Shown here piece after piece: positions 42,521 to 50,373 of a stretch of 64,000 bases of DNA. The stretch's first letter is position 1, and each line of letters starts with the position of its first letter. A program made the translations under genes and the position numbers. The stretch covers positions 2,170,001 to 2,234,000 of the forward strand of contig NZ_CP061281.1 in the NCBI RefSeq assembly GCF_014621695.1, given 5' to 3'. The notes beneath the pieces are model-generated. The model did no database searches. It saw only the letters and a program-made list of their open reading frames with translations, and had not been told where the DNA came from. This DNA comes from Streptomyces xanthii (GTDB lineage: Bacteria > Actinomycetota > Actinomycetes > Streptomycetales > Streptomycetaceae).

Positions 42521-44866
42521 CTATAAAGCCCCGCTGCAGACGACGAGCTTCCTGTTCACCGATTCGCCGTCGCCTGTTGGTGTGTCCGCGTTCTGCACGC
42601 TCTGCACGCCTTTCAGGATGCCGTCGAGTTCCGCCTGGGACAGACTCCCGTCGCCGGCGACCGCGGCGACGGTCTTCAGGGCCGCTTCGTGGAAGGCGTC
42701 GCGCAGCATGGGCCGCATGACGTCCGAGGCGTCGAGGCAGCGCGGTACGTCGTTCTGCCGGAAGCGGCGGTAGACGGCGCGGGCCGTGTCGTCCTCGCCC
42801 TCCCGCCCGCCGATCTTCTCCATGACCGGGGTCATGGCCGAGTACATGGTGCCCTCGTCGGCCCAGTCCTGCTGGACCTCCTGGGAGAACAGCACGCGCA
42901 GGGCCCGCTGGGCCGGTTCCCGGTCGTCGAAGAGGGCGGCGAAGTCGCCGGACACCTCGTAGCCGCGCCGGGGGTGGGGGCCGCCGGGGAGCAGGCGGGC
43001 GGAGTCCTCGATCGTGGCGCCGTCCTCGCCGCGGGCGAAGGAGCCCTGGTGTTCGTAGGCGCAGTGCTTCTCCTCGCGGAAGTCCCCGCCGTTCTTCTTC
43101 AGGGCGCCGGGGCCGCGCCAGTCGGTGGTGAGGGCGTCCGCGGCGTGCTTCCGGTCGGTGGCGAGGAAGTCGGCCCAGCGCCGCCAGGCGTCCCGGACGG
43201 GGCCGTGCCGGTCGGTCCAGTCGACCGTGCCGCGGGCCCATCGCGTGTAGGGGCCGGGGCCCGCGTCCTGGAGCAGGAGGTCCTCGATCCAGTCGGTGCC
43301 GGGCCAGCCCGCGGCGCCGTCCTCGCCGAGGCCCAGGCACCAGGAGGCGAGGTCGGCGGCGGGGCCCCGCTGTCCGGGGGTGCGCCACACGATGCTCTTG
43401 AGGTTGGCGTTGACCGGCCACCAGTACGTGGCGCCCTTGCCTCCCGCCGGCTTCCACGGCCCCGCGTAGTCCCGCTCCGGGTCGATGCCTTCGAGGGCGT
43501 CGTCGAGGGGCTTGAGGAGCTGGTCGGCGCCGTAGCCGGCGAGCTCGCCGATGCCGGGCATGATCGCGATGTCCGGCGGGTCGCCCGCCTGTACGCGGGC
43601 GAGCAGGACCTCCCGCTGGGCGGGGGTGCCCTCGTAGTCGACCTTGATGCCGTGGTCCTCCATGAGGGTGCGGAAGCGCTGGGCCTCCTGGCCGGTCCAG
43701 GTGCCGAGGACGGTGACCACCGGGTCGGAGGGCAGGGCCAGGGGGACGGCGACGGGCGCCACCACGGTCAGTACGGCGGCCAGGGCCAGGGCGCGGCGGC
43801 GGCGCCGGGTGCGGGTGGCGGCGCGGCCGATCCGGCGGGCCCAGGTCCAGTCGACGGGGCGGCGCGGGTAGTCCTGGACGAGCCGGACGACGAGGCCGGC
43901 GACGGTGGCGCACACGACGGCGCCGCCGAGGACGATGTACGCGACGTTCCACCAGCCGGAGCCGGACAGAGCGGGGGTCCCGGCGCCCGCGACGGTCTTC
44001 TGGGCGGTGTCGAGGACGCCGGAGGCGTCGCCCAGGCCCGCGGCGAGGCCGGTGCGCAGCGTGCCGGCGAGGTCGTCGCGGGTGCCGTCCAGGGCGAGGG
44101 CGGTGTGGACGGCGAGTCCGGCGGAGAGCCCGGCGAGGAGGGTGATGCCCGCGCCGCCGGCGAGGATCGCGGGGGCGAGCACCCGGCCGCAGCGGCGCCG
44201 GACGACAGCGGCGGCGCTGAAGGCGAGGGCGGCCGCGGCGCCCAGGGCGAGGAGGGCTCCGGCCCAGGCGGCGACGAGCGGGAAGGAGGGCTCGGCCAGC
44301 CGGCGGGCCCGGCTCTGTTCGTCGCGGGCGATCTGTTCGAGGCGGGCGAGGATGCCGGTGTCGGGGCGTTTCAGCAGGGCGCGGGCCTCGGCGAGCTTCT
44401 CCGACCGCATCCGCGGGTCGTCACGGTAGGTGACGGTGGCGGCGGTGACGGCGTTGCCGTAGGTGACGAGCATGCCGTTGACGGCGGAGACGTTCTGTCC
44501 GACTCCCCCGACGGCGTGGTCGGCGAACCGGGTCAGGCCCTGGTCCGCGGCGGCGAGCTGGCTCTCGGCGCCCTCCCCCGCGCCGACCGTCGGGGCGATG
44601 CCCAGCTCGATGGACCGGCGGGCTTCCTGATCGGCGCGGAGCACGGCGAGGCGGACGGCGACGGCGCCCTGCGCGGAGGGGGCGGTCTCGACGCGCATCC
44701 GGCGGGCCCGCGCGTCGAGGGCGGGCACGGCGACCGCGGTGAGGAGGGTGACGCCGGCGATCGCGCAGACGAGGAACAGCCACAGGTGCCGGTGGAGCAG
44801 CCGGCGAGTGCTCAGGGCGCGCTGGGCGCGGACGACGGAACCGATCGTGCGGCCGAGCGCGCTCAT
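42521..44866 (-). CDS. multi-pass membrane sensor fused to ABC-type solute-binding domain
   Basis: 781 aa. Five predicted membrane helices (about 28-50, 196-222, 229-256, 307-330 and 359-379) bracket two extracellular helical loops (51-195 and 257-306). A full extracellular solute-binding domain (about 382-770) follows, with MPGIGELAGYGADQLLKPLDD and late NDVPRCLDASDVMRPM segments. No transporter ATPase or permease is nearby, so it is probably a receptor, not an importer. The membrane half recalls mycobacterial GlnX and the binding domain GlnH, which feed PknG; here they are one polypeptide two genes from a PknG-like kinase. ATG overlaps the vWA stop by 4 bp. The ligand is unknown. Confidence 0.75.
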   Translation of the reverse strand: MSALGRTIGSVVRAQRALSTRRLLHRHLWLFLVCAIAGVTLLTAVAVPALDARARRMRVETAPSAQGAVAVRLAVLRADQEARRSIELGIAPTVGAGEGAESQLAAADQGLTRFADHAVGGVGQNVSAVNGMLVTYGNAVTAATVTYRDDPRMRSEKLAEARALLKRPDTGILARLEQIARDEQSRARRLAEPSFPLVAAWAGALLALGAAAALAFSAAAVVRRRCGRVLAPAILAGGAGITLLAGLSAGLAVHTALALDGTRDDLAGTLRTGLAAGLGDASGVLDTAQKTVAGAGTPALSGSGWWNVAYIVLGGAVVCATVAGLVVRLVQDYPRRPVDWTWARRIGRAATRTRRRRRALALAAVLTVVAPVAVPLALPSDPVVTVLGTWTGQEAQRFRTLMEDHGIKVDYEGTPAQREVLLARVQAGDPPDIAIMPGIGELAGYGADQLLKPLDDALEGIDPERDYAGPWKPAGGKGATYWWPVNANLKSIVWRTPGQRGPAADLASWCLGLGEDGAAGWPGTDWIEDLLLQDAGPGPYTRWARGTVDWTDRHGPVRDAWRRWADFLATDRKHAADALTTDWRGPGALKKNGGDFREEKHCAYEHQGSFARGEDGATIEDSARLLPGGPHPRRGYEVSGDFAALFDDREPAQRALRVLFSQEVQQDWADEGTMYSAMTPVMEKIGGREGEDDTARAVYRRFRQNDVPRCLDASDVMRPMLRDAFHEAALKTVAAVAGDGSLSQAELDGILKGVQSVQNADTPTGDGESVNRKLVVCSGAL

Positions 44867-46341
44867 GTCAGTCGCCTTCCGCAGCGGACGCAGTAGCGGG
44901 CTCCGGGGACCGCCGGCTCGGCGCAGGCCGGGTCTGGGCAGGGGCCCGTGGGAGTGGCGCCGCCGGGGTGGGGGCGGCGGGGGCCCCGGCCGGCGGAGCG
45001 GGTGCTCAGGTGCAGGAGGGTGACGCCGATGCGGTGGGGGTCGGCGGGGAGGCGGGCCTCGGTCCGGCCGGTGGCGGCGTCGATGATCCGGGCGTGTGCG
45101 CGGATCTCGTCGAGCACCCAGTCCTCGCCGAGCCGGTGCGCGGCCGCGGCGGCCCGGCCGAGGTGTTCCTCGGCGTCGGTGCGGCGTCCGGCGTCGAGCG
45201 CTTCGAGGCCTTTCTGGAGGTGGTCGACCATGCGGTGGCGTGAGTCGAGGATGCGGCTGTCGGCCGTGGTGTCCTCGGGGGTGTGGGCGGCGGTGCGGGC
45301 GGGCGGCGGGCCTGGGGCGAGCCAGCGGGCGGTGACGGCGGCGTGCAGGTCGCCGAGCGAGACCGTCGCGAACTGGAGTTCCTCGCCGAGCACGTCTGCG
45401 GTGTCGTCGGCGCGCAGGGTCAGCAGGAACTCGCTGGGGGCGCCCGACGGGTCCCAGGGCAGGGCGGCGAAGCGGTGGTGGTGCGGGTGGGTCGGGTGGG
45501 CCGGATGCGGGTCGAGGCGGCGGTGTTCGGGGGTGAACTGCACGAGGGAGTCGAGCTCCACGCCGGGCCGGGTGCGGATCTCCAGGGGCAGTTCGGGGAC
45601 GGCGCGGCGGCAGGCGCGGCGTACGGCGGCGGCCAGGGGCGGCGCGAAGTCCGGGCCCGCGGCCTCGGCGGTGCCGCGCAGCCGGGTGGCGATCCGGTCC
45701 AGCGGGCGGTAGTCCCAGCGGTCGCCGACGGCGATGACCTCGCAGCCGAACTCCGCGCCGCACGCGTCGAGTTCACGGTCGAGGGCGTCGGCGCGGGTGG
45801 CGGACCCGTCGGTGACGAGGAGCAGCCGCCGCAGGGGGCGCTCGCAGCCGGCGAACAGTTCGCGGGCTGCGGCGAGCCAGCCGTCGTAGCCGGTGGTGCG
45901 CGGCGTCGCGGCCGGGGCGAGCGGGGCCGCGCCGAGGGCGAAGACAGCGGCGCGGCGGTGGTCGCGGTCGGCCGGGGCCCAGGCGCTTTGGCCGGCGTCG
46001 GGGTAGTAGCGCCCGGGCCCCGCGGCCAGTACGGCGAAGTGGGCCCCGGCCGGCAGGGCGGGCAGCGCCTCCCGCACCGCCCGCACCAGCTCGGGCCGCC
46101 GTTCCTGGCCGAGGTCGAGGGCCAGCGCCACCGCGAGGGCGCGGGGATCCGCGGCGTCCCCGTCGGCGCCGTCGGAGGCGGTGACCTGGAGGGTGGCGCG
46201 CAGGGTGGCCGGTTCGCCGGGGACGCGGCGATCGGGCACGAGGTCGGGCTCGTCGACGCGGACGACGAGCGTCGTGTCGTACGGGGCCGCGGGCCCGCCG
46301 TCGGTGGTCCTGGCCGGTCCTGAGGTGGCCGGGGGTGTCAT
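44863..46341 (-). CDS. vWA-like protein with C-terminal Zn ribbon
   Basis: 492 aa. A central vWA-like fold (about 70-230) contains VALALDLGQE where DxSxS is expected, so the metal site is degenerate, and LLLVTDGSATRAD at the second metal strand. A beta-rich segment and a helical region follow, and the end holds a treble-clef-like CPDPAC...YCVRCGRRL Zn ribbon. It lies 34 bp after the PknG-like gene (GAGGA Shine-Dalgarno) and overlaps the membrane sensor by 4 bp. Likely a protein-protein interaction subunit of the same complex. Confidence 0.75.
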   Translation of the reverse strand: MTPPATSGPARTTDGGPAAPYDTTLVVRVDEPDLVPDRRVPGEPATLRATLQVTASDGADGDAADPRALAVALALDLGQERRPELVRAVREALPALPAGAHFAVLAAGPGRYYPDAGQSAWAPADRDHRRAAVFALGAAPLAPAATPRTTGYDGWLAAARELFAGCERPLRRLLLVTDGSATRADALDRELDACGAEFGCEVIAVGDRWDYRPLDRIATRLRGTAEAAGPDFAPPLAAAVRRACRRAVPELPLEIRTRPGVELDSLVQFTPEHRRLDPHPAHPTHPHHHRFAALPWDPSGAPSEFLLTLRADDTADVLGEELQFATVSLGDLHAAVTARWLAPGPPPARTAAHTPEDTTADSRILDSRHRMVDHLQKGLEALDAGRRTDAEEHLGRAAAAAHRLGEDWVLDEIRAHARIIDAATGRTEARLPADPHRIGVTLLHLSTRSAGRGPRRPHPGGATPTGPCPDPACAEPAVPGARYCVRCGRRLT

Positions 46342-46375
46342 CGGGTCCTCGGGGGTCGTCGGGAGCCGGCCGGCG

Positions 46376-48673
46376 TCATCGGAGGGTCAGCGGGCGGACG
46401 GCGTGGGCGTGTTCGACGAGGGATTCGCTGAGGTCCTCGTCGGGGGTGTCGGCCGCGAGTTCGAGGTAGTCGTCGGCCAGTCGGGCGCGGACCTCGTGGG
46501 CGGGGGTGGGCGGTACGGGGCGGCGCCAGGAACGCAGGAGGGCGCGGGCCGTGGGGTCGCCGGTGGCGCCGTGGGTGAGGTGGAGCGCGGCGAGCTGCCA
46601 TTCGGTGACCTCGATGCGCAGGCGCAGTTCGTCGCCGGTGGAGAGGTGGAGTTCGCGTTCCTGGGGCGGGAGGGCGCGGTCGGCCTCCTGGGCGGCGAGG
46701 ACGGCCGCGGCGGCTCCGGGGGCGGGGAGGTCGCCGGGTTCGGGGCCCAGGCACGCGGCGCCGATGCGGGTGGCGGCGCGCCGGGCGAGGGCGCGGCCCC
46801 GGGTGCCGGGCGGGACGCGGTCCAGGGCGGCGAGGGCGCCGGCGCGGTCGCGGGCGTCGAGGGCGAGCCGGGCCAGGCCCAGGGCGGCGCCGCAGTGCGC
46901 GGGGTTGCGCAGGTGGACGGCGTGGAAGAGGTCGCGGGCGGTGGCGCGGGCGGCGGCCGCATCCGGGCCGCCGGTGTGGGCGGCGCATTCGTGGACGTAG
47001 GCGAGGGCGAGTTTGGGAGCGTAGTCGCCGGGGAGGTCGGCGCGGACCCGTTCGAAGGAGGTGCGGGCCAGTGCGAGGTCGGGGTGGCGGCCGTCGGTGC
47101 CGAAGCGGGCGAGGGCGATGAGGCCGCGGTGCCATTCGAGGCGCCAGCGGCGGACGTCCTCGGGGCCCGGGATGGCCTCGGCCTCGGCCAGGTCGGCCTC
47201 GGCGCCCGTGAGGTCGGGGGCGGGGCCGGTGCCGAGGGCGACGCGGATGTTGTGCAGGCAGATCTCGGCGGAGCGTTCCTTGTCGGGGTCCTGGCCGAGC
47301 CGGGTCGTGGGGGCGTAGCCGCCGCTGACGCCGAAGTTCGGGGTGCGCTTGTCGTCGACGAACCGTTTGGGCACGGGGAGCCGGCGCGCGATCTCGACGG
47401 GGGTGGGCCGGCCGGGGTCGAGCGGGTGGAGCAGGGGTGGCGCGCCGCTGCGGGGGCGGCCGGGGCGGCGGCGGGCGAGGGTCTCGGTGGTGGGTACGTC
47501 GCCGAGCCGTTCGCCGAGCCACTCGGGCGAGGGGTCGAAGGCGACGGACGGTTCGGGGGTGGCGGCCTTGCCGCGCAGGGCTCTGATCTCCCGGAGCGCG
47601 CCGCGCAGTTGGTCGGCCATTTCTCGGGCGTCGCGGAACCGGGTGCCCTCGGCGACGGTCCGGGTGGCGCGGGCGACGACGCCGTCGAAGGAGGTGGCGC
47701 CGAGTCCGGGGACGTCGTCGCGGACGGCCTGGGCGGCGAGGACGCGCAGGGTCACGCCGACGGTGTGGAGGTCGTTGGCGAGGGTGAGTTCGCCGCCGAG
47801 TTCGGGGGCGTGGAAGCCGGGGGTGACGTGCAGGGCCGGTTCGGTGCGGCCGGCCTCGCGGACGCCGCCGAGGTCGATGACCTTGACGCGGTCGCCGACG
47901 TGGACGACGTTCGACGGCTTCATGTCGCCGTAGAAGCTGTCCCGGTCGTGCAGGTGGGCGAGGGCGCCGAGGAGCTGGATGCCGTAGGCGGCGACGTGTT
48001 CGATGTCGAGGGTCTCGCGGCCCCGGCGGACGGCGTCGACGACGGACTGGAGGGTGTGGTCGCCGACGTCCTCCATGACGATGTGGCCGCCGGTGAGTTC
48101 CTCGGAGGGCAGGAAGTCGCGGATCTGCACGATGTTCGGGTGGCGGGTGGCGATGAGGGTGCGGCGTTCGAGGTCGGCGAGGGCGGCGCTGTCCTGGCCG
48201 TAGCGGTCGCGGAGGGTCTTGACGGCGACGAGGTCGTCGAGGTGGGTGTCCTCGGCGAGGTACACCCAGCCCTGGCCGCCGCGCGCGACCGGCCCCTTGA
48301 TCAGGTACTGCCCGCCGACGGTGTCGCCCGCTCCGAACTCGGGCCGCATGGCCTGTGCGGTGCCGCACTCCGGGCAGTACTGCCGGTCGGGCCGTCCGTC
48401 GAGCACGGGGATGGTGGCGCCGCAGTCTGGGGCGCGGCAGCGCTGCGCCTGTTCGGCGATGTGCGCGCCGTCGGCGAGCCGTTCCTCGGGCGAGCGCGGG
48501 CGGCGCACGGGGAGCCGGAGCAGCGCGTCGGGGCCGTACGGGGGCGCGCCCAGGGAGGGCAGGGCGGGCGCGTCGGGCCGGCGCCCGCAGTGACCGCAGT
48601 ACCCGGTGGCGCACACGCTCCCGGGACAGCCGGCCCCGGTGAGCCGCCGGTGCGGGCACGGGCGCGGGCTCAT
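46376..48673 (-). CDS. PknG-like Ser/Thr kinase (Zn ribbon-kinase-TPR)
   Basis: 765 aa. The N-terminus has two Cys clusters (C6, C16, C21, C26, C29; then C79, C84, C100, C103), the second a rubredoxin-like ribbon directly before the kinase. Kinase domain about 120-390: GGQYLIKGPVARGGQGWVYLA, Lys152, the non-HRD loop FYGDMKPSNV (D250) and DLG Asp267 in VIDLGGVRE, all as in mycobacterial PknG (YNDLKPEN, LIDLGAV). The C-terminal ~370 residues are TPR-like helices. Mycobacterial PknG phosphorylates GarA to control glutamate metabolism; no FHA/GarA gene is in this window. The ATG overlaps the protease stop by 4 bp. Confidence 0.88.
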   Translation of the reverse strand: MSPRPCPHRRLTGAGCPGSVCATGYCGHCGRRPDAPALPSLGAPPYGPDALLRLPVRRPRSPEERLADGAHIAEQAQRCRAPDCGATIPVLDGRPDRQYCPECGTAQAMRPEFGAGDTVGGQYLIKGPVARGGQGWVYLAEDTHLDDLVAVKTLRDRYGQDSAALADLERRTLIATRHPNIVQIRDFLPSEELTGGHIVMEDVGDHTLQSVVDAVRRGRETLDIEHVAAYGIQLLGALAHLHDRDSFYGDMKPSNVVHVGDRVKVIDLGGVREAGRTEPALHVTPGFHAPELGGELTLANDLHTVGVTLRVLAAQAVRDDVPGLGATSFDGVVARATRTVAEGTRFRDAREMADQLRGALREIRALRGKAATPEPSVAFDPSPEWLGERLGDVPTTETLARRRPGRPRSGAPPLLHPLDPGRPTPVEIARRLPVPKRFVDDKRTPNFGVSGGYAPTTRLGQDPDKERSAEICLHNIRVALGTGPAPDLTGAEADLAEAEAIPGPEDVRRWRLEWHRGLIALARFGTDGRHPDLALARTSFERVRADLPGDYAPKLALAYVHECAAHTGGPDAAAARATARDLFHAVHLRNPAHCGAALGLARLALDARDRAGALAALDRVPPGTRGRALARRAATRIGAACLGPEPGDLPAPGAAAAVLAAQEADRALPPQERELHLSTGDELRLRIEVTEWQLAALHLTHGATGDPTARALLRSWRRPVPPTPAHEVRARLADDYLELAADTPDEDLSESLVEHAHAVRPLTLR

Positions 48674-49989
48674 GCGGGGCCTCCCGGGTGGGCCGACTGG
48701 AGGTCGGTGACCAGGGAGCGCAGGGCGGCCAGGCGGGTTCCGGGGTCGGTGATCGTCGTGAGGGAGCGGCGGCGCAGGATCAGGGGTTCGACCGTGGCGG
48801 TGTGGTGCGGGAGCGAGGCCGGGTCGAGGACTCCGGTCTCCCGGGCGAGTCGGGCCTCCCTCTCTTTCGCTCGGGTCAGGAGGTGGTCGGCGTGGGTGAG
48901 GAGGGCCGGTTCGAGGACGTGGTCGCGGACCTCCGGCCAGCCCGGCGCCTCGCTGTCACGGAAGACGAGCAGGAGCCGCAGTCCGCACGCGGCGAGCCGG
49001 CCGAGCAGCAGGGCGAGCCGGGCGGGGTCGTGGGCGTCGTCGACGGCGTCCACGAGCAGTACCCGGGCGTGCCCTTCGGGTGGGGCGGCGGGGGCCGGGC
49101 CGTCGCCGAGCAGCCAGGCGCGGGTGGCGGGCCACTGTCCCGGGGCGAAGGTGAGGGCGCGGCCGAGCAGCCGTTCGACGAGCCGTTCGCGGGAGGCCTC
49201 GGCGGGCCGGTGCACGAGGTCGGCGAGGTGTGCGAGGTGGTGCAGGGTGCGGGCGCGGCCGCCGTCCTGGGCGACGACGCTGATCTTGACGGGGGCGGCG
49301 CCGGGGTCGCCCAGCCAGGCGCGGGTGCGTCGGTCGAAGGCGGGGTCCCAGGCGTCGGGCGCGGCCAGTTCCCGTACGGGGGGCGCGAGTTCGGCGATGC
49401 GTGTGACGGGGATGAGGTAGGAGAACGCGAGGATGTTGTCCTCGGGGAGTGGCTCGTCGAGGTCGCCGCGCCAGCTGACGACGAGGCCGACGACGACGGG
49501 GTCGCCGTCCGGGGACACGGTCCAGGCGCCGGCGCCGCTGAACCCCTCGCGGACGACTTCCCTGCGGTGGCGGGCGTCGATCTGGACGAGGGCGCCGCGC
49601 AGCCCGGCGACGGAGCCGGTGAGGGTCATGCCGTCGTCGAAGCGCTCGGCGTAGCCGGTCGCCCGGACGGGGAGTCCGGCGGGGATCGTGGTGGACAGCC
49701 GGGCGGGCCGGGCCTCGGGGCGCGGGCTGTCCAGGCGCAGGACGGCGAGGTCGCGGCTGGGGTCGGTGTGCCGGTCGTCCACCCAGCCGTCGTCCAGGAC
49801 GCGGGCGGCGACGGAGGGCAGGGCGGGGTTCTCGGGGAATTCGGCCCAGAGCGCGGCGTCCGGGCGGGTGACGACGTGCGCGCAGGTGAGCACGGTGCGC
49901 GCGTCGACGAGGACCCCGGCGCCCAGTAAGGCGCCCGCCGCGTCCCCCGACCGCAGGCGCACCCGCCAGTCCGCAGCCAACTCAGCCAT
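48670..49989 (-). CDS. trypsin-like serine protease domain protein
   Basis: 439 aa. A chymotrypsin-fold N-terminal domain with a complete triad: H38 (VLTCAHVV), D80 (SRDLAVLRL) and S151 (GFSGAGAW). There is no signal peptide, so it is cytoplasmic. The C-terminal half (about 235-430) is helical with a beta strand-Asp segment ARVLLVDAVDD; no P-loop is present, so this is not an obvious NTPase. It is the first gene of the coupled operon protease-PknG-vWA-sensor. ATG 49989 is preferred; a GTG at 50007 would add six residues. Intracellular trypsins of this kind are seen in predicted regulated conflict or stress systems. Confidence 0.85.
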   Translation of the reverse strand: MAELAADWRVRLRSGDAAGALLGAGVLVDARTVLTCAHVVTRPDAALWAEFPENPALPSVAARVLDDGWVDDRHTDPSRDLAVLRLDSPRPEARPARLSTTIPAGLPVRATGYAERFDDGMTLTGSVAGLRGALVQIDARHRREVVREGFSGAGAWTVSPDGDPVVVGLVVSWRGDLDEPLPEDNILAFSYLIPVTRIAELAPPVRELAAPDAWDPAFDRRTRAWLGDPGAAPVKISVVAQDGGRARTLHHLAHLADLVHRPAEASRERLVERLLGRALTFAPGQWPATRAWLLGDGPAPAAPPEGHARVLLVDAVDDAHDPARLALLLGRLAACGLRLLLVFRDSEAPGWPEVRDHVLEPALLTHADHLLTRAKEREARLARETGVLDPASLPHHTATVEPLILRRRSLTTITDPGTRLAALRSLVTDLQSAHPGGPA

Positions 49990-50076
49990 CGTCTTCACGC
50001 TACGCACCAGGGGGCGTCCGCACTAGACTCGTGACACGCCTTCATCAGCCAAGTGCCGTACAGAAAGGCGGACTTG

Positions 50077-50373
50077 ATGAGTGATCAGCCGGAGCCGATC
50101 GGTCTCGCGCAGGCGATCGCGGCGCTGCGCAAGGAGCTCGCGCAGGCGCAGCGGGAGGGCGCGGGCAGCGACTGGAAGTTCACGGTGGGGCAGGTGAGCG
50201 TGGAGTTCTCCGTGCAGTTCCACCGGGCCGGGGACGCGGGCGCGGCGCTGAAGCTCGGGGTGGTGGAGGCGCGGCTCGGCGGCGGTGTGAGCCATGACGC
50301 GGTGCACCGGGTGCAGGTGGATCTGAAGCCGGCGCCGGGTCCGGACGGCCGGGAGCGGACGGTGGGCCGCTAG
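50077..50373 (+). CDS. Trypco2-like small protein (trypsin-associated family)
   Basis: 98 aa: an N-terminal helix (IGLAQAIAALRKELAQAQREG) followed by an antiparallel beta domain (WKFTVGQVSVEFSVQFHRA...VHRVQVDLKP). This pattern matches the small Trypco family that co-occurs with cytosolic trypsin-like proteases in actinobacteria. The ATG at 50077 has an AAAGG Shine-Dalgarno. It is divergent from the protease gene across ~87 bp, with a TAGACT -10-like box at 50024-50029. Possible partner, inhibitor or sensor of the protease. Confidence 0.75.
   Translation: MSDQPEPIGLAQAIAALRKELAQAQREGAGSDWKFTVGQVSVEFSVQFHRAGDAGAALKLGVVEARLGGGVSHDAVHRVQVDLKPAPGPDGRERTVGR

Follow-up and report, generated by a model that had tools for sequence, protein, structure and literature searches.

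A 64,000-nucleotide stretch of the Streptomyces xanthii chromosome (NZ_CP061281.1, positions 2,170,001 to 2,234,000; G000:C1:2170001-2234000 in a genome of 8.35 Mb), called the window throughout, contains a compact locus encoding a cytosolic trypsin-like protease, a PknG-like Ser/Thr kinase, a vWA protein and a membrane receptor in which a GlnX-like half is joined to a solute-binding protein (SBP) domain, next to a divergent gene for a Trypco2 (trypsin-co-occurring domain 2) protein. This locus is one copy of a conserved Streptomyces gene block. It is best read, with a probability of about 0.6, as a paralogue of the GlnX-GlnH-PknG cassette with altered input and output, in which a receptor of SBP/GlnX type would signal to a PknG-like kinase that controls a coupled trypsin-like protease. 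The architecture of the receptor-kinase-protease block, as deduced from sequence, is well supported, and from it we infer the class of ligand, the direction of the signal, the gating of the protease by the kinase and the protease substrate.

The locus was first outlined in a first-pass annotation made from the letters of the window alone, and its four minus-strand genes and divergent Trypco2 gene were reproduced with their coordinates, the 4-bp overlaps (protease/kinase and vWA/receptor) and the 34 bp that separate the kinase and vWA genes. Among relatives, 69 block loci were read, including that of the window, and counts are restricted to the 59 that are uncut by a contig end (dropped: L005, L006, L052, L054, L055, L070, L071, L176, L180 and L181); presence and absence rest on set score cut-offs, 60 bits in the case of Trypco2. 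The order protease, kinase, vWA, GlnX-like, SBP on one strand is found in 49/59 loci, a proportion that is not an unbiased frequency since the loci were found through similarity to single proteins (vWA, protease or SBP). Four other loci have protease-kinase, GlnX-like and SBP without vWA, five have only kinase, GlnX-like and SBP without protease and vWA (L166, L168, L169, L170 and L173), and the last one, L162, has an unscorable protease and a decayed appearance. The same order and strand in 49/59 loci exceed what would be expected by chance. As to the proposed co-occurrence of all five families, the five proteins (protease, kinase, vWA, GlnX-like and SBP) do stand together in these 49 loci, while Trypco2 proved to be optional (at least 60 bits in 24/59). 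An obligate five-part unit is rejected, since Trypco2, vWA (missing in 9/59) and protease (missing in five, with one more unscorable) are each dispensable.

Block-type SBPs scoring at least 250 bits are present in 80 of the 199 same-genus genomes, at 82 places by eye count, of which 62 were read and 20 were not; the next score below 250 bits is 183, leaving aside a G118 copy that is divided into two parts (201 and 190 bits). Seven of 12 further stretches are the block (L107-L113), and the other five (L114-L118) have a trypsin match only. L107, from G437, is the single block copy outside the window's family, and absence outside the genus is weak evidence because at most four candidates per genome were scored in the class-wide protease search. 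The flanks vary, with no non-block gene family recurring in more than 8 of 44 stretches (two of the 44 being canonical loci). Two copies, L162 (G183:C1:2381000-2394000) and L181, have a decayed appearance with modules spread over several frames, and L166 and L168 have a long insert between the kinase and TPR domains, of low complexity in L166.

The genome also encodes a canonical PknG cassette. Two genes of the genome match PF16918 (PknG_TPR), and the stronger (294.9 bits) lies 2.9 Mb from the window in locus L004 (G000:C1:5138000-5157000). There, seven genes follow one another on one strand. They encode, in this order, a four-helix GlnX, an SBP_bac_3 GlnH, a coiled-coil protein, PknG (rubredoxin, kinase and TPR domains), a zinc-ribbon PP2C, a vWA protein that includes VWA_3_C and an FHA protein, and the cassette exceeds the published operon of three genes in length. 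Between the window and this cassette, identity amounts to 35% for the kinase and PknG (E 2e-66) and, by blastp, to 26% for the two vWA proteins (E 2.5e-11). The kinase had been annotated as PknG-type, which is borne out by a kinase domain followed by the PknG TPR domain (PF00069 and PF16918, both above cut-off) and by the PknG chain 2pzi as closest solved relative (PDB sequence search, E 4.1e-49). N-terminally, Cys-rich ribbons precede the kinase domain; rubredoxin PF16919 is unmatched in the window kinase, and in 17 aligned kinases (two of them canonical) Cys79/84 are near-invariant and Cys100/103 invariant. By reading of the sequence, YGD replaces HRD and DLG replaces DFG. The catalytic K/E/D/N/D residues are retained in all 61 readable block kinases (63 in total, two gapped), which disfavours a catalytically dead kinase.

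A quick maximum-likelihood tree of 78 kinases, rooted on the f4 loci and computed without bootstrap or AU (approximately unbiased) test, unites the 63 block kinases in a single branch (SH-aLRT 100), from which the remaining 15 kinases, canonical or other, are separate. The block kinase is not an ortholog of the canonical PknG, as it belongs to a separate branch and both are present in one genome. The block is thus, on sequence grounds, a paralogue of the canonical PknG cassette, and the presence of a true GlnX-GlnH-PknG cassette in the same genome suggests that it is a second, rewired copy and not the nutrient pathway itself. The canonical kinase nearest to the block branch is that of L159, from another family (support 89), and not that of Streptomyces, so that both duplication within the genus and transfer are possible origins. 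The five protease-less loci are nested inside the block branch, and loss of the protease is therefore probably secondary.

The window receptor has five hydrophobic helices (residues ~29-47, 204-222, 233-251, 308-326 and 360-378) with the SBP domain starting past the fifth, in agreement with the five-helix protein joined to a solute-binding domain of the first-pass annotation. Published GlnX has four transmembrane (TM) helices and two extracellular four-helix bundles of ~150 aa each (PMC9769921). The suspected relationship of the membrane half to GlnX has been strengthened by four comparisons, and this half can be assigned to the GlnX family from its sequence profile. A hidden Markov model (HMM) of block proteins only matches canonical GlnX with E 1e-14 (48 bits, 12 of them composition bias); no canonical sequence is inside this HMM, although its recN regions were excised by means of an iterated profile with canonical GlnX among its members. 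Alignment by hhalign of the block membrane half with canonical GlnX gives a probability of 96.9 over 197 columns, and the precomputed Pfam accession PF28326 is common to the window protein and canonical GlnX. The block profile also matches GlnX in 9 of 13 GlnX loci from other families (missed: L149, L150, L153 and L160); for comparison, canonical GlnX is 33-35% identical to homologues in compact GlnX-GlnH-PknG operons. The TM1-TM2 spacing is ~156 aa in the window receptor versus 147 in canonical GlnX, and the TM3-TM4 spacing ~56 versus 167 aa, which indicates that the first ectodomain is retained and that the second is mostly missing. The AlphaFold model of the receptor is good for the membrane half and of poor confidence for the SBP half; in Foldseek searches with this model, no informative match was obtained for the membrane half.

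The first-pass annotation had proposed that the roles of GlnX and GlnH are fused in this receptor. A GlnX-like and an SBP domain indeed share one frame in the window, but the SBP is not GlnH and the fusion is found in 5/69 loci (window, L005, L006 and L037, together with L061, which lies on a different branch), so that it is a local state; elsewhere the two are neighbouring genes that frequently overlap. A database search for fused proteins, which scores candidates of similar length sharing exact words and no others, yielded 12 sequences including that of the window. In each of seven SBPs encoded as separate proteins, a single hydrophobic helix lies at the N-terminus, in some of them with a lipobox-like Cys, and the fifth helix of the window receptor is best read as that anchor.

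The identification of the solute-binding domain as GlnH did not hold: it belongs to SBP_bac_1, and canonical GlnH to SBP_bac_3, and the block SBP HMM has no match in the canonical loci even at E 10. Orthology to GlnH is consequently rejected at family level. In the PDB, the SBP profile finds chitin-oligosaccharide-binding and other sugar-binding proteins (best E 9.9e-8). Foldseek with the receptor model gives two matches at E 1e-3 or better, 5xpj and 5dvf, both glucose-binding protein and both involving the low-confidence half of the model, and two of the fused proteins are labelled 'alpha-glucoside transport system substrate-binding protein' at their source. The ligand, judged from these sequence relatives, is probably a sugar or oligosaccharide. 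Membership of an ABC importer is rejected for this genome, where none of the 106 matches to the ABC permease family PF00528 falls in the window and the nearest is ~100 kb from the receptor; the next-best SBP of the genome (G000:C1:4756102) adjoins two permeases.

On the output side, the protease consists of a trypsin-like domain (residues ~12-205) and a C-terminal alpha/beta domain (residues ~220-445). The His/Asp/Ser triad is kept in 53/53 aligned proteases, which disfavours a catalytically dead enzyme, and no export signal was seen in the protein, whose sole hydrophobic stretch is internal. The AlphaFold model has a mean pLDDT of 87.1, and the 50 Foldseek matches listed for it all have a trypsin-like fold (among them umbrella toxin particle chains, HtrA1, V8 protease, DegP and thrombin). 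Judged from its DSSP order and a motif, and not from a search match, the modelled C-terminal domain resembles an NTPase fold that has no Walker A. This domain (48670-49350) contains a Walker-B-like VDxVDEA motif and relatives are likewise without Walker A, so that an inactive NTPase is possible.

Three features tie the protease to the kinase, namely the 4-bp overlap of their genes, single-frame fusions and a coiled-coil extension in relatives. Protease and kinase form a single open frame in L113 (1436 aa), L163, L164 and L165; the Pfam domains of the fusion were confirmed for L113 and L163, and it has one origin in the kinase tree. In a second class of proteases (L056 to L076), a C-terminal extension shows homology with the coiled-coil protein whose gene immediately precedes that of canonical PknG (E 1e-15 in one canonical locus and 2e-14 in the other; 12 of 18 second-class proteases in the profile). 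In the model of the whole protease, it is the C-terminal columns alone that match the coiled-coil gene in G000 and G251 (positions compared: L004 and L159). A PP2C-vWA-FHA trio directly adjoining the block in L051, L053 and L162 also counts in favour of the reading as a rewired cassette.

The degenerate metal ion-dependent adhesion site (MIDAS) noticed earlier in the window vWA protein was verified, DLGQE standing in place of DxSxS. Of 66 aligned vWA proteins (seven of them non-block), 43 have an intact MIDAS, 21 have lost it and two are unreadable at this site, and the 21 that lost it belong to the window's branch (L006, with no readable kinase, was placed by its receptor). Loss of the MIDAS with the rest of the vWA protein kept suggests that binding no longer depends on a metal and has become purely structural. 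The zinc ribbon claimed for the vWA protein, located at its C-terminus, falls below the Pfam cut-off in the window protein and finds backing in the family, with four Cys within the last 60 model columns in 52/59 block vWA proteins and in 0/7 others. The Trypco2 gene of the window is the sole match of its genome, and the family occurs in 126 of the 199 same-genus genomes; at least 27 of the 82 SBP places have a match within 12 kb (by eye). Of the 53 uncut loci in which the protease could be scored, 23 have a divergent Trypco2 gene next to it, at a distance of 94-160 bp in 21/23 (the values are negative in L056 and L062, taken as stretched domain hits), and the decayed L162 has one as well. It is absent from all five protease-less loci, and L069 has a partial match of 34 bits, under the threshold. 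By its distribution, Trypco2 can be described as a facultative partner accompanying the protease.

The following mechanism is proposed. A membrane-anchored SBP_bac_1 protein, joined here to the GlnX-like protein via the fifth helix, would bind an extracellular ligand, and the bound state would be relayed across the membrane by the GlnX-like helical bundle to the PknG-like kinase, at its TPR domain. This contact is carried over by homology from PMC6069109, where GlnX is proposed to contact the TPR domain of PknG. The kinase would then control the trypsin-like protease of the same complex, either directly, as the fusion in relatives suggests, or via coiled-coil and vWA subunits, with Trypco2, if present, as partner of the protease. 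As for the bolder view that the rewired cassette forms a transmembrane receptor-kinase pathway with regulated proteolysis as direct output, the kinase being tethered to the protease or, in some genomes, in one polypeptide with it, the odds are judged to be just short of even. The coupled receptor-kinase-vWA-protease unit of the first-pass annotation stands as far as conserved order and protease-kinase fusions are concerned, and gives way in that vWA and protease are dispensable and that the gating is deduced.

Several points weigh against the interpretation as a rewired, protease-coupled cassette. The GlnX similarity spans the first ectodomain and TM2-TM3 alone, with the second bundle mostly absent, the HMM match is partly due to composition, PF28326 is found on just 3 of the 12 fused proteins and the receptor model is poor in its SBP half. 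The window protease is without the coiled-coil extension, the protease-kinase fusion sits in another branch than that of the window, the vWA proteins of the window's branch have lost the MIDAS (21 of the 64 that are readable) and Trypco2 is missing from 35/59 loci. The kinase tree was computed quickly and contains long branches, some of which may have been drawn together, as flagged for L107 and eight others. The five loci with kinase, GlnX-like and SBP alone imply that the core can work without protease, and the link between kinase and protease activities is drawn from sequence. Possible alternative roles for the protease are turnover or that of a suicide effector.

The latter role would fit a conflict or cell-suicide system of trypsin/Trypco/vWA type, in which damage or infection would be sensed by the receptor or kinase and the protease would attack the cell's own proteins. 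This is an unlikely explanation, even if Trypco2 next to trypsin and vWA proteins typify such systems of multicellular bacteria (PMC7159879), and even if the block shows a patchy spread (80 of 199 genomes) and varied chromosomal contexts. The window has no MoxR AAA+ match, the five PF07726 places of the genome (three over cut-off) being all elsewhere, and no Pfam match to a VMAP or iSTAND third component among its five proteins; a strict MoxR-VMAP conflict system is rejected on the first count. In addition, the kinase looks active and is of PknG type, unlike the kinases of vWA-MoxR systems, most of which are described as disrupted (PMC7159879), and the input is an SBP receptor. In PADLOC, the kinase domain alone matched many defence kinases (best E 1.3e-24), protease and vWA matches being weak (0.016 and 0.074).

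The five loci reduced to kinase, GlnX-like and SBP can be taken instead as hints of a second nutrient pathway of PknG-GarA type, with the kinase acting on an FHA regulator encoded elsewhere and the protease as an accessory, for example in turnover of the complex. An FHA protein, within a PP2C-vWA-FHA trio, directly adjoins the block in L051, L053 and L162, and the TPR domain, needed for PknG function in Mycobacterium smegmatis (PMC6069109), is retained. However, no FHA or PP2C match was found among the five window proteins, and the protease, first in the operon, with its triad kept throughout and fused to the kinase in four genomes, seems to have a central role; this possibility is rated lower still than the conflict system. 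Chance adjacency of an ABC-type binding protein with a housekeeping kinase and protease is the least probable of all, and clearly disfavoured. The families are abundant, as seen above for Trypco2 and as the 106 permease matches imply for SBPs, but order and strand are conserved across many contexts, genes overlap, fusions are of two kinds and the receptor has no permease match within ~100 kb.

The rewired cassette can thus be compared with what is already in print, namely the GlnX-GlnH-PknG pathway, Trypco pairs and SBP-linked kinases (PMC6069109, PMC7159879). With the GlnH-GlnX-PknG(-GarA/OdhI) system of Mycobacterium and Corynebacterium (PMC6069109, PMC9769921) it has in common a PknG-type kinase with TPR, a four-helix relay of the GlnX family and an outside binding protein in one operon. 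Unlike the mycobacterial system, it has a sugar-type SBP_bac_1 replacing the SBP_bac_3 for amino acids, fused to GlnX in the window; it adds protease and vWA, has no FHA substrate gene and a shortened second GlnX ectodomain, and is a paralogue present besides the canonical cassette. The canonical Streptomyces cassette shares the kinase, vWA and GlnX families, and its coiled-coil domain is found on relatives' proteases, but it has no protease or Trypco2, an intact MIDAS, an SBP_bac_3 GlnH, a phosphatase and an FHA protein. PMC7159879 describes conflict systems of the trypsin-Trypco and the ternary MoxR-vWA kind, and a GAP1-N2 theme that combines an active kinase, a zinc ribbon, a PP2C and a vWA protein standing alone. 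Trypsin with a Trypco2 neighbour (the adjacency that defines a trypsin-Trypco pair, present in the window), vWA and a kinase with zinc ribbon in one theme are common to these systems and the block; the block differs in its membrane receptor with SBP and in its PknG TPR, and the window has no MoxR or VMAP Pfam match. The word PknG is not in the main text of PMC7159879. Streptomyces griseus SGR_4432, Streptomyces coelicolor SCO1468 and MSMEG_1200, named as SBP-linked kinases in PMC6069109, combine a Ser/Thr kinase and a solute-binding protein as in the block, and the passage concerned names no protease or GlnX there. A literature search, in a library without most subscription papers, found no description of a PknG kinase or paralogue cassette with trypsin, protease or Trypco2.

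Taken as a rewired copy, the block points to the GlnX-GlnH-PknG route being a modular platform for receptors, with swapped sensor and output, and not a single amino-acid sensor. If so, an intracellular trypsin/Trypco2 pair would be placed under a defined membrane receptor. Further structures on the action of GlnX upon PknG are called for in PMC6069109, and the natural receptor and protease-kinase fusions are tractable single-chain parts for testing this action in Streptomyces. The features of the window locus are listed in Table 1; nothing family-specific was found above cut-off in NCBIfam for its proteins.

Table 1. Genes and receptor halves of the block in the window, with the evidence for each assignment
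Feature	Position in window	Strand	Evidence
Cytosolic trypsin-like protease	48670-50007	-	Pfam Trypsin_2 E 3.5e-10
PknG-like Ser/Thr kinase	46376-48673	-	Pfam Pkinase 7e-19, PknG_TPR 4.2e-22
vWA protein	44863-46341	-	Pfam VWA_3 7.4e-8
Fused receptor, whole gene	42521-44866	-	Open reading frame and Pfam SBP_bac_1
GlnX-like membrane half of receptor (TM1-TM4, loop before TM5, part of TM5)	43742-44866	-	Profile comparisons, PF28326, helix prediction
Outer half of receptor (end of TM5 anchor and extracellular SBP_bac_1 domain)	42521-43741	-	Pfam SBP_bac_1 1.6e-8
Trypco2 gene, divergent	50053-50373	+	PF19631 E 4e-25

Cassettes of canonical type vary in other families. GlnX-GlnH-PknG in the published mycobacterial order (PMC6069109) is found in L149-L152, and six of the seven L004 genes, GlnX-GlnH-PknG-PP2C-vWA-FHA, in L154, L155 and L161, with just a weak FHA match (19 bits) in L155. 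L159 has all seven in a different order, coiled coil-PknG-PP2C-vWA-FHA with GlnX and GlnH matches at the far end. In the f18 family (L156, L157, L158 and L160), extra GlnX/GlnH pairs stand beside PknG-like kinases, mostly on the opposite strand and tail to tail, and are a further expansion of GlnX-linked kinases.

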